DNA from: a virus
DNA: 20,149 nt
Reading direction: 5' to 3' (one strand)
IMG/VR virus record: IMGVR_UViG_3300035698_032749
Coordinates: 1-20,149 of that record
Shown in pieces: positions 1 to 7,993 of the stretch. The notes beneath the pieces were generated by a model. That model had not been told where the DNA came from, did not search any database, and saw only the letters and a list, made by a program, of their open reading frames with translations. The position numbers were made by a program, and so were the translations under genes. Each line of letters opens with the position of its first letter. Position 1 is the stretch's first letter.

Positions 1-111
1 CTCGAAGTCATGAGTCTTTTGATTAAGAGTAGCTACCCTGTCGGCTTTGTCTACATCTTTAAAAAACTTCCACCCTCTTTCCGTTAGAATTTCTGTCTTA
101 GAATCGAAGCA
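1..111 (-). other. Intein N-terminal splicing block inside the large terminase
   Basis: From Cys128 the protein reads CFDSKTEILTERGWKFF and then KDVDKADRVATLNQ. This is the classic start of a Hint/intein domain (block A): a nucleophilic Cys, a T-x-I-L-T strand, then G-W-K and a short acidic helix. It directly follows the terminase sequence GSDNYD, where uninterrupted terminases normally continue with something like LVG or LRG. The rest of the intein (block B TxxH, a possible homing endonuclease, and the His-Asn end) would lie left of the window. No stop or frameshift is visible, so the element looks intact as far as it can be read. Terminases are a known intein host; this insertion site is read from the sequence. 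Confidence 0.82.
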
Positions 112-492
112 ATCGTAATTATCGCTCCCCACCAGCTGAAAAAGAGACTCAGAACCATTTTTACTCTGCATGCGTATCTTCATCTCTTGAGAGTTCTTTT
201 GAACAACAAGTTCTTCAGGAAAGTAGTCAAGTATCCTAAAGCCATCATTGGTCATAGAATCCCAGATTACTTTCTTAGCCTGCGAATAAGTAGGAAAAAT
301 ATAATAGTAAACACCAGGGTTCTCCCACATTTGACGGATGACATAGTTGAGAGCTGTAATATCTTTACCGGCACGACGTGGCAATATGGCTAGGACGCGC
401 TTAAACCCAGAGTCTAGCGCTTTTAAAATAGGAACTTGATAGGGTCTGGGCTTATAACTATTAAGCCGGGTCTCCACCTCTACGTTTGTCAT
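1..492 (-). CDS. terL: Terminase large subunit, N-terminal part, interrupted by an intein (partial at left edge)
   Basis: This is the ATPase-nuclease that packages phage DNA. Only 164 codons lie in the window and the frame is open to the left edge. Residues 1-127 are the N-terminal ATPase domain, with a Walker A-like loop PRRAGKD at 38-44, then the usual YYYIFPTYSQAKKVIWD stretch at 62-78 and QLVGSDNYD at 119-127. At Cys128 the homology to terminases stops and an intein begins (annotated separately). The ATG at 490-492 overlaps the end of the upstream small-terminase-like gene by 32 bases, which fits a TerS-TerL pair. The SD is poor, so translation may be coupled to the upstream gene. The identification rests on motif reading. 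The Walker A form ending in GKD is common in phage terminases. Confidence 0.85.
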   Translation of the reverse strand, partial: MTNVEVETRLNSYKPRPYQVPILKALDSGFKRVLAILPRRAGKDITALNYVIRQMWENPGVYYYIFPTYSQAKKVIWDSMTNDGFRILDYFPEELVVQKNSQEMKIRMQSKNGSESLFQLVGSDNYDCFDSKTEILTERGWKFFKDVDKADRVATLNQKTHDFE

Positions 493-922
493 CGTTCTTT
501 TCGTAGATTCCTCGATAAGGCTGTTGAAGTTCTTCTCTTCCATAATTTTCTGCGTGTCTTTTCATTGAGGATTTAGATTCTGCCTCAGCTGCTGCTTCTT
601 TAATCTCTTTCTCTACATCCAATCCGTGGGAATCATAATAGCGTAAATAGCGCATGAGAAGCTTGACCTTGTGGGCTGGTAACTCATCTCTATTCATAGC
701 CATGTGTAGCCACTTGTTATGTAGGATTGATTTCATAATCTCAAAGGTATTATTAACCTTATCGCTAACGTAACAAAAATATTTTAAGTATTGATAGCCA
801 ATTCCCTTCCATTGAAGAAATTGAGGGACCGTGTAAGAGTCCTTTTTCTTCACCCAATCAAGCATCCACGCACAGAGTGAATCGAGGTACTCATCAGAAA
901 CCTGTATGCTACGCATTTTCAT
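461..922 (-). CDS. Probable terminase small subunit
   Basis: A 153-aa protein just upstream of the large terminase and overlapping its start by 32 bases. The middle (about residues 35-100) is helical with aromatic and basic residues. The last third is highly charged: an Ala/Glu-rich helix, then a basic Arg/Lys/Asp/Gly tail. That arrangement suits a DNA-recognising small terminase whose C-terminus contacts the large subunit, but no diagnostic motif is seen and the call rests mainly on position. Start choice is uncertain: ATGs at 922 and 916 are both possible and neither has a clear SD. An AT-only palindrome lies just upstream. It could instead be an unrelated packaging-associated protein. Confidence 0.5.
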   Translation of the reverse strand: MKMRSIQVSDEYLDSLCAWMLDWVKKKDSYTVPQFLQWKGIGYQYLKYFCYVSDKVNNTFEIMKSILHNKWLHMAMNRDELPAHKVKLLMRYLRYYDSHGLDVEKEIKEAAAEAESKSSMKRHAENYGREELQQPYRGIYEKNDDKRRGGDPA

Positions 923-1353: not shown

Positions 1354-1935
1354 TTAGGCAAACATATCTTTTCTAAGTTTTGCCATACGTCCATCCGGAT
1401 GTTTAAAAACAATTCCTTCGGCTATTAAAGATCCAGTTCCAGTCTCCAAACAAAACGCACTCTGTAAAGATTTAAGAAGAGAAAAAAGTTGGTCAAGATA
1501 AACCTGAGGCGCCTCTATAAGTGGACATTGATTAAAAGGAACAAAGAGATTCATAGCGAGTTTATAATCATTATTTTGAACACCAGGCCCCACTAACTCC
1601 CCGTAAACTCTTCCGCTAAATCCACTACGAATCCAACCTTTTGTAATAGCATTGGTGACTCCCGCAATAACTCTTTGATTAAACTTATTCTGTCTGCCTA
1701 TGATAGGATTCTCAATAATCCTGTTCTTTCGATTGTCTACTACTACTAGATTACCTTCTTCAAAGATGCAGCAAATATTAGTTCCATTAATCTTTTCTGT
1801 GATCTTAACGTCTGGGTTATCAAACACCCATTCATATCCTGGATTAACTTCTTCAGTTGCGAGATATTTCCCGTTTATCATCTTGCGAACAAATGGGCAT
1901 TCTATCTTAGGAAAGTCTATTATTTCGTACTTCAT
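1354..1935 (-). CDS. RNA ligase family protein (nucleotidyltransferase fold)
   Basis: A 193-aa protein with the motifs of covalent nucleotidyltransferases. Motif I is TEKINGTN with the expected AMP-accepting Lys48. An NRKN segment follows near residue 70. A YGELVG segment has Glu113 (motif III-like), AEGIVFK carries motif IV at about 172-178, and KLRKD at 186-190 is motif V. This matches the RNA-ligase/Rnl2-like family, which seals RNA ends using ATP. It ends just after motif V, so it lacks the C-terminal domain of T4 Rnl2. The ATG at 1935 has GGAG 8 bases upstream; an in-frame ATG at 1962 would add 9 residues with a poor SD. It could repair RNA cut by host defences, but DNA-end or nucleotide chemistry cannot be excluded. 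Confidence 0.78.
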   Translation of the reverse strand: MKYEIIDFPKIECPFVRKMINGKYLATEEVNPGYEWVFDNPDVKITEKINGTNICCIFEEGNLVVVDNRKNRIIENPIIGRQNKFNQRVIAGVTNAITKGWIRSGFSGRVYGELVGPGVQNNDYKLAMNLFVPFNQCPLIEAPQVYLDQLFSLLKSLQSAFCLETGTGSLIAEGIVFKHPDGRMAKLRKDMFA

Positions 1936-1991
1936 AAATCCATCTCCGGTTTCGGTAACCATTGCTACAGTTTCATCGTAAATATATTTTT

Positions 1992-2177
1992 TTAATCTGA
2001 TTCGATTATAAAATAACTCCAGTTCTTAAAACAAGATATTAAAATCTCTTCTCCTGTTAGGGAGTCTCTTTTATAAACTTTTATTAATTTATCCTCTGTC
2101 AACTCATAAAAGTATTTGACATATAACTCTTCATACTTTGTGTATGAGTCTTCGTAATAAATAATAAACGTTTTCAT
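1992..2177 (-). CDS. Small hypothetical protein
   Basis: A 61-aa protein rich in Tyr, Glu and Lys, with no motif I recognise. Its ATG overlaps the stop of the preceding gene in an ATGA arrangement and it has no clear SD, so it is probably translated by coupling. The alternating hydrophobic/charged pattern suggests a small beta-rich fold. Nothing in the sequence indicates function. Confidence 0.6.
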   Translation of the reverse strand: MKTFIIYYEDSYTKYEELYVKYFYELTEDKLIKVYKRDSLTGEEILISCFKNWSYFIIESD

Positions 2178-2434
2178 GGCAAGTCTATTATCCCGCTCTC
2201 ACGGACAAGTGCCCCTATTTCTTCAGCTAAGCGTATCCGCTCTTCTGAGGGACTGGGTTCATACTTTGTAACGTTTCTGCATATGCTATAAATCTCCCAG
2301 AGAATTCCTGAGTAGTCTCCCCCTTTTAAGGCTAGCATAAGCTCTTGCCTTCCCTCGGGAAGCATAAATTTTAAAGTAACTTCTGGCACACCTGCCTCCG
2401 GGATTGGATATTCTAAATTAAATTTATTTCCCAT
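2174..2434 (-). CDS. Small hypothetical protein
   Basis: An 86-aa acidic protein with AAGGGAG 5 bases before the ATG. A beta-like N-terminus (residues 1-32) is followed by helices, including an acidic segment EERIRLAEEIGALVRE near 64-79. Its start lies within the end of the preceding 55-aa gene and its stop overlaps the next start, so the three small genes form a tightly coupled block between the resolvase and RNA-ligase genes. No family is recognised. Confidence 0.65.
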   Translation of the reverse strand: MGNKFNLEYPIPEAGVPEVTLKFMLPEGRQELMLALKGGDYSGILWEIYSICRNVTKYEPSPSEERIRLAEEIGALVRESGIIDLP

Positions 2435-2580
2435 GTTGGCTCCCTTATGTGAAAGTTCATCATTCTCGCATCTTCGTAGCCAAGATTAATATATTCGCTT
2501 AATAATTCAAAAGCTAAATCAGCGGACTCGAGTATACCTACAATCTGTCTGCTTTGAACGTACACGAGATACATATTCAT
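2413..2580 (-). CDS. Small hypothetical protein
   Basis: A 55-aa protein starting MNMYLVYVQSRQ. The start at 2580 is chosen because the resolvase stop lies one base upstream (TAA-A-ATG) and GGAG sits 10 bases before it. A longer reading from 2619 would add 13 residues inside the resolvase gene and has no SD. The sequence looks like a small alpha/beta protein with a helix around residues 20-32. Function is unknown. It overlaps the next gene by 22 bases. Confidence 0.55.
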   Translation of the reverse strand: MNMYLVYVQSRQIVGILESADLAFELLSEYINLGYEDARMMNFHIREPTWEINLI

Positions 2581-2581
2581 T

Positions 2582-3019
2582 TTAATAATACTCCGGGACA
2601 AAAGGTACAGAAGGGACAAAAGGTTCGATATAGAAAAGCGTCATGGGTTCCTCGGAATAAAACTTTCGTGCATTAAGCTCGTAGATTAAAGCATCATCTT
2701 TCCATAAAACTTCATTAAGTGCATCGTTTACGAATTTGACAAGGTTATCTAGATCAGGAATGGTGCTGTGAGGCGTTTTAAGGGCCCTTGTAGCCTTTAT
2801 CTTACTCCAGCTAGCTGGAATTACCATATGGAACTCGATCGTTAATTTAAGGGGCCCTGTAATCATTTCTTGATTAACTAGCTGCTCAAAAAGGATTGCT
2901 CTTAATCTCTTCTTCTTCTCGCTTTGCCTGTCAAAGTACTTCTTGCCATGTCGTCCCGCTCTCATCCAAGGAACAGGTTTGCCTTTAATTATAAACTTCA
3001 CATCTCTCCTTAATTTCAT
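2582..3019 (-). CDS. rusA: RusA-type Holliday junction resolvase
   Basis: RusA enzymes cut four-way DNA junctions during phage recombination and help prepare DNA for packaging. This 145-aa protein has the family pattern: FIIKGKPVPWMRAG at 9-22, then PDLDNLVKFVNDAL at 88-101 and KDDALI at 107-112. Asp89, Asp91 and Asp108/109 match the metal-binding acids of E. coli RusA, and Lys95 matches its catalytic Lys. It overlaps the initiator gene upstream by 35 bases. ATG 3019 gives the full length. A GTG at 3001 with AAGGAG 4 bases before it would start the protein at VKFIIKGK, nearer to typical RusA N-termini. The C-terminus carries VP tripeptide repeats encoded by 9-bp DNA repeats. Confidence 0.9.
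   Translation of the reverse strand: MKLRRDVKFIIKGKPVPWMRAGRHGKKYFDRQSEKKKRLRAILFEQLVNQEMITGPLKLTIEFHMVIPASWSKIKATRALKTPHSTIPDLDNLVKFVNDALNEVLWKDDALIYELNARKFYSEEPMTLFYIEPFVPSVPFVPEYY
2595..2621 (+). repeat. Three tandem 9-bp units, gggacaaaa type
   Basis: On the plus strand the units read gggacaaaa, ggtacagaa and gggacaaaa. They lie in the last codons of the RusA gene on the opposite strand, where they encode the FVP-SVP-FVP tail. The same unit occurs four times on the plus strand at 6360-6395. Confidence 0.75.
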
Positions 3020-5101: not shown

Positions 5102-5330
5102 GAAAACGATCGTTGAGCAACTAAATGATTTAATGTTTAATTTTTTGGAAGAGAACCATCTAAATAATGAAGCCACCCTAGAGATTTTATCTAACATGAT
5201 GATCTTTTATAACTACACTCATAAGATTCCTTTGGATACTGTGAAAGGTGTAACTGATAAGATATTAAAGTTTTATAAAACGTTTGAAGATATGCGAGTA
5301 GAAGTTAAAAAGGAGAAGCCTAATGATTAA
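5091..5330 (+). CDS. Hypothetical early protein
   Basis: A 79-aa, almost entirely helical protein with GGAGG 6-7 bases before the ATG. The C-terminus is Lys/Glu-rich. It lies directly before the ERF annealing gene and overlaps it by 8 bases. Its size and position suit an accessory factor or host-nuclease inhibitor of the recombination set, but no motif supports this. Confidence 0.65.
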   Translation: MKSEKTIVEQLNDLMFNFLEENHLNNEATLEILSNMMIFYNYTHKIPLDTVKGVTDKILKFYKTFEDMRVEVKKEKPND

Positions 5331-5985
5331 CGAAGAAGTAGAGACTAAGAAAGTTGAAGAGATAGTAACACCATCACCTTATGAGTCAGCTCAACTAGGT
5401 GAGTTATTTACTGCTCTTGCAAAAGCGCAGTCAGCAATGGCGGTCGCTAAAACAGACAGCAGTAATCCTTTCTTTAAAAGTAAGTACGCTGATTTAGCTT
5501 CAGTTGTACGAGCTTCCAGAAAATCTCTTTCTAAAAATGGTTTGGCAGTTATTCAAAGTGTTATTCCTGGTAGAGAAGGAAAGCTCAACCTGCATACGCG
5601 TCTTTGCCATGCGTCGGGTCAGTGGATGGAGTCTTGTATTCCTGTACTTCCCCCTAAGCCAGACATTCAGACACTCGGTAGTTACTTAACTTATCTAAGA
5701 AGATACACCTATGCTGCGGTAGTAGGAGTTGTAGCTGCTGAAGAAGATGATGATGGTGAGTCAGCAATGGAATCTCCACGCCAAAAGGGAGTAGCATCTC
5801 CAGGATTTGAAAGAATTACAAAGGCCCAACTACAAGTTTTAAGTAATGAGCTAGAGGGCTTAGAAGAGATATTAGAGAGCCTACTTAAAGGTTATGGAAT
5901 ATCTAAGTTGTCAGATTTACCATCTAAAACTTATAGCAAATGCCTCGAAAGAATCAGAGAAATTAAAAGAGCAAAAGAGGATTAA
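5323..5985 (+). CDS. erf: ERF-family single-strand annealing protein
   Basis: ERF proteins form rings on single-stranded DNA and anneal complementary strands (type: P22 Erf). This 220-aa protein has the signature: NPFFKSKYADLASVV at 48-62, a central beta region, then GSYLTYLRRYTYAAVVGV at 119-136 followed by AEEDDDG. The C-terminal third (about 155-220) is a less conserved helical tail that may bind SSB or the exonuclease. AAGGAG sits 7 bases before the ATG. SSB follows 2 bases after the stop and a YqaJ exonuclease two genes later, the usual annealase-exonuclease pairing. Confidence 0.92.
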   Translation: MINEEVETKKVEEIVTPSPYESAQLGELFTALAKAQSAMAVAKTDSSNPFFKSKYADLASVVRASRKSLSKNGLAVIQSVIPGREGKLNLHTRLCHASGQWMESCIPVLPPKPDIQTLGSYLTYLRRYTYAAVVGVVAAEEDDDGESAMESPRQKGVASPGFERITKAQLQVLSNELEGLEEILESLLKGYGISKLSDLPSKTYSKCLERIREIKRAKED

Positions 5986-5987
5986 GA

Positions 5988-6359
5988 ATGCAAGAAATAA
6001 CTTTAATAGGAAACATGGGAAAAGATCCCGAAGAGAGAGAAACTTCAACAGGTAAGAAGCTAACTACTTTTTCACTCGCAGTGAGCCCGAAGAAAAATGA
6101 AACAGTGTGGTATGACTGTCAAATTTGGGAAAATAGGCTACCACAGTTTGCCAAAGTATTAGAGTATCTTAAAAAAGGTACACGTTTGCTTGTTCGCGGA
6201 GACTTAAGAACTCCCCACGTCTATCAAGCTAAAGACGGAACACATAAAGTAAGCCTTAAAATGGAGCTTAGCTTTGTGAAAATGATAGGGTCAAGCCACG
6301 AAAAGAAAGAAGAGACAACTAAAGAACAAAGCGTCTTTGCTGAAGAGATTCCTTTTTAA
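5988..6359 (+). CDS. ssb: Single-stranded DNA-binding protein
   Basis: A 123-aa OB-fold SSB. The N-terminus ITLIGNMGKDPEERET and the segment TFSLAVSPKKNETVWYDCQIW (27-47) are typical, as is the LLVRGDL strand near residue 70. It is short because it lacks the usual long Gly/Pro-rich linker. It still ends EEIPF, matching the acidic DDDIPF-type tip by which SSBs recruit partner proteins. It would coat single strands made during replication and by the exonuclease. It starts 2 bases after erf, with AGAGG upstream. Confidence 0.92.
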   Translation: MQEITLIGNMGKDPEERETSTGKKLTTFSLAVSPKKNETVWYDCQIWENRLPQFAKVLEYLKKGTRLLVRGDLRTPHVYQAKDGTHKVSLKMELSFVKMIGSSHEKKEETTKEQSVFAEEIPF

Positions 6360-6395
6360 GGGACAAAAGGGACAAAAGGTACAAAAGGATAAAAG
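6360..6395 (+). repeat. Four tandem 9-bp units filling the gap after ssb
   Basis: Units gggacaaaa, gggacaaaa, ggtacaaaa and ggataaaag run exactly from the base after the ssb stop to the base before the next ATG. The last unit supplies the AAAAGGA SD. The first three match the repeats at 2595-2621. Confidence 0.8.
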
Positions 6396-7109
6396 ATGAG
6401 TGAAAAAGATATTAAATATCATTTAAATAAGTTTGTTGAACATATCGGCAATATGGAGGCTAGCCTTAATATAAATTGGGATCGGACAGCCAAATTTCAA
6501 GAAAACTATATGTTTGAAGTAAAAGCTATGCAGGAAAAGCTAGAAACACTAGAGCAAACAGGTGATTTGGCAAAAATGGTCTCTTCTATTAAAGAACAGG
6601 TCCATATAGCCTCGACTACCATAAAAAAAGAAGTGGGCTCTTTACGAATTGAAAGAGAGGAGTCCCTCTCATCTATTGAAAAAGAAAGTGCCCTAAGAGA
6701 CTCGTTTTTAAAAGATTTAAAAGTAATATTGAAAAAGGCAAGCGAGTTAGACCTCGAAAAGACTGCTATGAAGGGGGCATTAATGGCATTAAATTATGTT
6801 AAGGAATTTAAAGACTCCTACGCTCATTTACAGAGACTTAAAACTGTTCTTAAGAGTATGGATTTACCCTCTTTTGATTATATCCCCGATACACTGTACC
6901 ATGCAAATTGGAATTTAGATCTTAAAAAGGTAGGGTTATCTACACGAACCCTAAAGCAATTAAATAATAAGAATATTATTACTTGTGGCGATCTAGCGTC
7001 GCAGCATGAACAATTTCTTATTGAAGACTTTAATGTAGGGGAAAAAATGATGAAGGAAATTAAAATAAAACTTCATCAAGTAGGCCTTAGGCTAGGGATG
7101 TATACATGA
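6396..7109 (+). CDS. Coiled-coil protein with a C-terminal RNA polymerase alpha-CTD-like domain
   Basis: A 237-aa protein. Residues about 1-160 are helical and charged, with heptad-like stretches at 36-120 suggesting a coiled coil. Residues about 172-237 read like the alpha-subunit C-terminal domain: LDLKKVGLSTRTLKQLNN, then a GDL turn, then FNVGEKMMKEIKIKLHQVGLRLGM across 212-235. Aligned to E. coli alpha, Arg184 matches Arg265, and Gly215, Lys217 and Glu221 match Gly296, Lys298 and Glu302; Asn268 and Ser299 are changed. The domain is a double helix-hairpin-helix that binds DNA minor groove. It lies between ssb and the exonuclease and overlaps the latter by 4 bases. It could bind DNA or mimic alpha; the role is unknown. 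Confidence 0.75.
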   Translation: MSEKDIKYHLNKFVEHIGNMEASLNINWDRTAKFQENYMFEVKAMQEKLETLEQTGDLAKMVSSIKEQVHIASTTIKKEVGSLRIEREESLSSIEKESALRDSFLKDLKVILKKASELDLEKTAMKGALMALNYVKEFKDSYAHLQRLKTVLKSMDLPSFDYIPDTLYHANWNLDLKKVGLSTRTLKQLNNKNIITCGDLASQHEQFLIEDFNVGEKMMKEIKIKLHQVGLRLGMYT

Positions 7110-7993
7110 AAATAATAACATTTGATGATGGGCAAGGAAGTGATTCTTGGCTAATTTGGAGAAAGGGTGGAATTGGAGCTTCGGACATAGGGGTTTTAAT
7201 GGGATCCAACTCTTATTCTACTCCCTTGCAGCTTTGGGAAAAGAAATGTGGTTTTAGGCAGGAAGACCCTATAAATTTTGCTATGTCACATGGAATATCT
7301 CATGAAGATGTAGCGCGCCAATGGGTAAATGAACATCATCAGCTAAATTTAAAGCCTGTATGCATAGAAGATACCGAAAAAACTTATTTTAGAGCCTCTT
7401 TAGATGGATGGGATTTTGATTCTCAGACTTTAGTAGAGATAAAGTGTCCTATTAGTGAAAAAGTTTTAGATGCAGCAAGATTAACTCAGTCAATTCCAGC
7501 TTATTGGTATGATCAAATGCAGTGGCAGATTATGTTATCAAATCCTAAGAGAGCTTTTATAGCTATTTGGGATTATAGATATAATTCATGCTTAACAATT
7601 GAAGTGACCTCAAGTACTAAGAAAATAGAAGAGATGCGCCTTAAAGGTGAGGCATTTTGGCATGGAGTACAAATAGGCAAGGCACCGGAACCTCAAAAGG
7701 GCGACTACATAGAAATAGATGACCCACAGGTCCATGAACTACTATTGGAGTATCAAAGTGTGGCTGACAAAGAAGCGGCCTTCAGCGCCCGCAAAAAAGA
7801 GCTTAAGAAGAAGATAGAAGAATACGGAGACGATGGCAATTTCATTGCTTTTGGTTTTAAAGTTCAAAGAATGGCTCCTCGCTCATCGTATGATTTAGAT
7901 AAGATGAGAATCGATGGAATAGATGTCGATAAATATATCAAAAAGTCCGATAGCATAGGGTACTATAGAATTTATCCTCCCAAAGGAAAATAG
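7106..7993 (+). CDS. YqaJ-type viral exonuclease (lambda Exo fold)
   Basis: These 5'-3' exonucleases resect duplex ends to make single strands for the annealing partner. The 295-aa protein shows the family motifs in order: WLIWRKGGIGASDIGVLMG at 15-33, Glu67 in HGISHED, then LDGW with Asp100, VEIKCP with Glu111 and Lys113, and the Gln-rich helix YDQMQWQIM at 135-143. Asp100, Glu111 and Lys113 form the catalytic D-E-x-K. The C-terminal part (about 190-295) is a helical and beta extension. The start overlaps the previous stop as ATGA, with AGGG upstream. It is the last gene of the early operon and converges with the lipoprotein gene 33 bases away; no clear terminator is seen in that gap. Confidence 0.92.
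   Translation: MKIITFDDGQGSDSWLIWRKGGIGASDIGVLMGSNSYSTPLQLWEKKCGFRQEDPINFAMSHGISHEDVARQWVNEHHQLNLKPVCIEDTEKTYFRASLDGWDFDSQTLVEIKCPISEKVLDAARLTQSIPAYWYDQMQWQIMLSNPKRAFIAIWDYRYNSCLTIEVTSSTKKIEEMRLKGEAFWHGVQIGKAPEPQKGDYIEIDDPQVHELLLEYQSVADKEAAFSARKKELKKKIEEYGDDGNFIAFGFKVQRMAPRSSYDLDKMRIDGIDVDKYIKKSDSIGYYRIYPPKGK

Follow-up and report, generated by a model that had tools for sequence, protein, structure and literature searches.

An essential gene of an uncultivated tailed phage, the one for the large terminase (TerL), is almost certainly interrupted just before its Walker B motif by a class 1 intein that carries a LAGLIDADG homing endonuclease. The window, which here means the whole stretch of DNA analysed, is an entire viral record of 20149 bases, and its terL open reading frame runs from 543 to 1 on the minus strand and is open at the left end. 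The first 144 residues (112..543, minus strand) are the N-extein, the ATPase part of TerL, with Walker A sequence RRAGKD and the ending GSDNYD. This part matched Pfam GpA_ATPase (E=0.003) and a PHROG terminase (E=9e-4), and its amino acid identity to thirteen viral-contig TerLs was 67-90% across all 144 residues. From base 111 the frame reads CFDSKTEILTERGWKFFKDVDKADRVATLNQKTHDFE, the 37 residues up to the record end, which we assign to the start of the intein (1..111, minus strand; block A, class 1 LAGLIDADG type; Cys1 codon 111-109). The earlier note called this cysteine Cys128, a number that starts from an inner ATG (492), whereas the longest ORF, which opens with the ATG at 543, makes it Cys145. 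Met occurs near the inner ATG in several relatives and at the outer start in none, which makes a TerL start at 492 plausible.

The intein and its site in the terminase

Only 111 bases of the window's own intein are visible, and because the record stops 37 residues into the insert, the remainder of the element was read in relatives. On their own, these bases gave weak profile matches only (Hint_2, E=0.23, below cut-off). Searches of the 37-residue fragment, a query too short for more, against Pfam, NCBIfam, PHROGs and the PDB likewise returned weak matches only, and the PF14890 intein model had no match in the window's own record, as expected with 37 residues.

A search with the window fragment yielded 48 loci. 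Alignments to L001-L006 crossed the junction, whereas those to L007-L020 ended at it. In L001-L006 and L021-L023, an in-frame insert of 324-340 residues lies between GSDNYD and SLMGTNP (SLVGTNP in L022 and L023), while the intein-free L007-L020 and L024-L032 read directly through GSDNYD/SLMGTNP or a close variant, mostly with Ser after the D. Removal of the insert from the occupied genes leaves exactly the sequence of the intein-free relatives (L001-L006 and L021-L023 compared with L007-L020), as for a class 1 intein. The nearest occupied and empty pair, L006 and L019, differs by an exact 972-base insertion with flanks that show neither loss nor duplication. The insertion point in the window, GSDNYD/(intein)/SLMGTNP, falls between bases 111 and 112, just before Walker B and 13 residues before its acid, at a site that is empty in many relatives. 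Relatives with the complete element, together with those with an empty site, settle the identity of the window intein at the level of sequence.

The complete element was present in two contigs, L001 and L002, as 326 residues (L001 copy at L001:2696-3673), and the window intein is identical to its start at 111/111 bases; the unseen middle of the window copy is presumably the same. By our own counting of block positions (B, F and G), the L001 intein has Cys1, block B TPNH (T66/H69), block F VYCVSVPNQIIKVRRNG and the end WSGN/S (N326, +1 Ser). Its endonuclease motifs, FLGLYIAEG (E127) and YLVLGDG (D215), retain both catalytic acids, as in two-motif LAGLIDADG enzymes. Pfam LAGLIDADG_3 matched two segments of the protein, with an overall E of 5.6e-8. 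The whole of the NCBIfam intein N-terminus model TIGR01445 could be aligned, but at E=0.003 it stayed below its cut-off, as did the standard intein splicing-region profiles. The nucleophile Cys1 is shared by the window and 61/61 relatives. Beyond the window's visible part, T66 is kept in 60 of the 61 relatives (Ser in the remaining one) and both H69 and N326 in all 61, with Ser at +1 at the GSDNYD/S site.

An AlphaFold model of the intein from a 61-sequence alignment has the Hint fold (pLDDT 96.7, pTM 0.93; an earlier 7-sequence model was poor, pLDDT 66). Foldseek against the PDB placed the TliVMA, PhoVMA, PI-SceI and PI-PfuI inteins at the top (E down to 2.5e-16), followed by I-DmoI, and the best BFVD match was an 'intein splicing domain' from a phage, whose TM to the query was 0.90. 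The exact insertion, the intact splicing and endonuclease motifs, the predicted fold and the patchy distribution, all legible in the sequences, bear out the earlier note's reading of an intein in the large terminase, for which relatives supply complete in-frame copies and empty sites. Its insertion point, GSDNYD/C, and its proposed junction check agree with the direct read-through of intein-free relatives and with the L007-L020 matches that end there. The block B TxxH, the Cys, Ser or Thr after the intein and the resumption of terminase that it foresaw appear as TPNH, Ser at +1, and SLMGTNP followed by the Walker B stretch VVFSEY. The question it left about a homing endonuclease is answered by the LAGLIDADG motifs of the L001/L002 copy, which the window matches in all of its visible intein DNA.

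Several other candidates were considered and rejected. A class 3 intein (no Cys or Ser at position 1, Trp-Cys-Thr triplet) does not fit, as Cys1 is present and L001 has Cys at F:4 but Ser at G:5 and Phe at B:12. A split intein was rejected because L001-L006 encode the same-site element in one uninterrupted piece. A match in Vibrio phage ZCVPP1 (H1) that crosses the junction was not taken as a same-site intein, since its annotated CDS of 1,476 nt is too short for a terminase with a long insert. The terL gene of L015 (L015:6001-7100) was examined for an intron; its frame breaks after YENSKQ and its C-terminal half lies in another frame with residues missing, which looks more like a deletion or an assembly fault.

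Identical intein DNA beside diverged exteins

The N-exteins of the window and L001 differ at 74 of 432 bases, with 45 codons changed synonymously and 14 non-synonymously, and the inteins at 0/111; had the intein diverged as fast as the extein, 111 bases without a difference would have a probability of about 1e-9. The last difference before the junction lies 19 bases away in L001 and 16 bases away in L002, so any co-converted flank is short. A DNA search with the intein end also identified L052, a contig that begins inside the intein. It matches L001 at 116/116 terminal intein bases and 11 bases beyond, and then diverges into a C-extein that is 71% identical in DNA. As a control, L001 and L003-L006 were compared with one another; in each of the ten pairs the inteins are less alike (62-68%) than either extein (65-81%).

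Since the shared intein DNA lies at a contig end, we considered an assembly chimera, in which the assembly ran on from this phage into the intein of another, the terL gene of the window phage being itself intein-free. Such an error would account for an intein part identical to that of another phage, and the identical tract, measured from the last difference to the window end, has a length near a k of 127 (129 nt for L001, 126 nt for L002). The first difference of L052 from L001 and L002 falls at its base 128, so that this contig begins exactly 127 bases before divergence. The contig ends match an assembly graph, for which we infer k=127, with one identical element in several genomes of the sample. 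In a contig that ends at a graph fork, however, reads connect the final k-mer with the unique part. The window and L052 both stop within the shared intein, as expected of one element in several genomes, and L052 leads from it into a third TerL C-extein. The two contigs are also complementary in gene content, with no overlap, and have GC contents of 0.390 (window) and 0.395 (L052). Their tetranucleotide correlation of 0.743 exceeds the values for the window against each of 14 other contigs, and is close to that of the window's two halves (0.746). L052 is a possible continuation of the window, with a remaining gap of about 2 kb at the other end, judged against the record of L003. We therefore consider a chimera very unlikely and favor an intein that belongs to the window phage.

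Vertical inheritance under strong constraint, without recent transfer, would fit the same-site inteins of L003, L004, L005 and L006, which at 62-68% DNA similarity indicate a site long occupied in this phage group, but it is most improbable given 0/111 and 0/116 differences, synonymous sites included, beside exteins that are 17% and 29% different, and given that, elsewhere in the set, it is the intein rather than the extein that changes faster. Intein DNA that is identical in a clearly different phage instead points to a recent jump between phages. These comparisons establish, as far as DNA identity can, a recent transfer of the intein between phages with terL genes that are some 17% or more apart, and a single intein allele, in its visible part, is shared by at least two, perhaps three, different terminases.

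The non-canonical C-terminal end and predicted splicing

The intein departs from the His-Asn end that the earlier note predicted: all 61 aligned relatives end in Gly-Asn, with Gly in place of the usual but non-obligatory penultimate His (G:6). At block F position 4, 56/61 have Cys, the second commonest residue there among inteins. Position 13 of this block, where inteins commonly have His (PMC4031507), is Lys in 15/18 terminase-site copies and mostly Tyr elsewhere. The block F His at position 311 is present in 30/43 copies in other genes and absent from 15/18 terminase-site copies.

Class 1 inteins without a penultimate His can splice (PMC5050341, PMC7664689), so its loss does not exclude class 1 membership. 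The mycobacteriophage Bethlehem RDF intein, likewise class 1 but in a different host gene, has a natural penultimate Gly and splices to completion, and replacement of this Gly by His slows splicing (PMC5050341). Because Gly-ended class 1 inteins splice, the terminase-site intein is expected, by analogy, to splice as well. A Hint domain that cleaves without ligation (bacterial intein-like, or a degenerate intein), leaving TerL processed or inactivated, would explain why the penultimate His and the block F position 13 His are both absent and why the weak Pfam match is Hint_2, but this too has very little to recommend it when Cys1, the block B His, the terminal Asn and the +1 Ser are kept in 18/18 same-site copies, terminase follows in frame, and a natural phage intein with the same penultimate residue splices fully (PMC5050341).

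For the favored class 1 intein, self-splicing of the precursor would begin with attack by Cys1, proceed by transesterification to Ser+1, and end with Asn326 cyclisation and an acyl shift. GSDNYD-SLMGTNP would thereby be restored and the packaging motor made active, and packaging would depend on protein splicing. The endonuclease would cut intein-free terL alleles of co-infecting phages, and repair of the cut terL would copy the intein in. The terminase-site clade may be part of an extensive lineage of phage inteins in which the Gly-Asn end is fixed. This end, together with the loss of His311 and the Lys F:13 of most clade members, therefore raises the speculative and rather doubtful idea that its Asn cyclises with a different assisting residue (e.g. 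Lys F:13 or the invariant Arg316), in a splicing variant that would be undescribed.

Distribution, related inteins and known systems

On a TerL tree of 37 terminases (14 with the insert and 23 without), at least eight gains or losses are required. Within sample 3300035698, as identified from contig names, different occupied alleles (L003, L052 and L072) were found together with an empty one (L007). In L022 and L023, the first catalytic acid has changed from E to Q and GDG to GDR, so the endonuclease looks decayed; the splicing motifs are intact. Occupied, empty and apparently decaying states coexist at one terL site, as the homing-cycle model expects. More distant terminases (L071-L079) carry related inteins, 39-100% identical, at the same terminase site, and related inteins below about 38% identity are mostly in other genes. 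A host search in bacterial genomes returned distant terminases only, in four MAGs, too little to name a host.

Further inteins were observed in these genomes. The terminase gene of L021 (L021:492-4064) contains two, the further one at FIS/TPRG, and within the same terminase family L008 has an intein at HDWS/SHFAD, in the nuclease domain, and L039 one at Walker A, RR/SGKD; the inteins at these three sites have canonical His-Asn ends. L040-L047, L129 and L140 carry related inteins that end NGN/T, at DFGL/TPA or similar sequences in other terminase-like proteins, and DFGL/TPA is probably a nuclease-domain motif. The Gly-Asn LAGLIDADG lineage occurs in many phage genes (L061-L140, the best 80 of 298 confirmed loci in one scan). 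Some of its hosts look like papain-like peptidases, with sites NSWG/S and G/SC before the likely catalytic Cys. The window itself also encodes a recombination module of ERF, SSB and YqaJ genes (5323-7993, plus strand), and an RNA ligase-like gene with a RusA resolvase (1354-3019, minus strand).

In mycobacteriophages, inteins occur more often in TerL than in any other protein. They are inserted there at Walker A, at Walker B, at the C-motif or in a helix of low conservation, and several have both splicing and DNA-cutting activity (PMC5050341). The mycobacteriophage inteins TerL1-a to -e and TerL6-f (Kelley et al. 2016, PMC5050341) resemble the present one in that they lie in the large-terminase ATPase domain, some with active endonucleases, and have spread between related phages; they are often near-identical per site and sometimes lack the penultimate His. 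The site described here, GSDNYD/S, is different and belongs to a different, uncultivated phage group. The TerL of Gordonia phage GMA6 (KR063280, L141) likewise has a LAGLIDADG-type intein with the end SGN/S, a few residues before Walker B (FQ/SAEYQFIGFDE). It aligns over all 326 positions but is 27% identical, and its flanking terminase is clearly different. We found no paper on this exact terminase site in the open-access literature, to which the search was confined.

TerL inteins are well known, and the present one is a new member from an uncultivated phage group, in which its recent transfer is well recorded. One intein allele, DNA-identical where visible, resides in phages whose terminases are 17-29% different, and a single phage group in which the same terminase site is found occupied, empty or with a decayed allele offers a clear natural snapshot of homing. 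A mobile intein of this kind can also break metagenome assemblies, and terminases may be annotated as truncated genes as a result.
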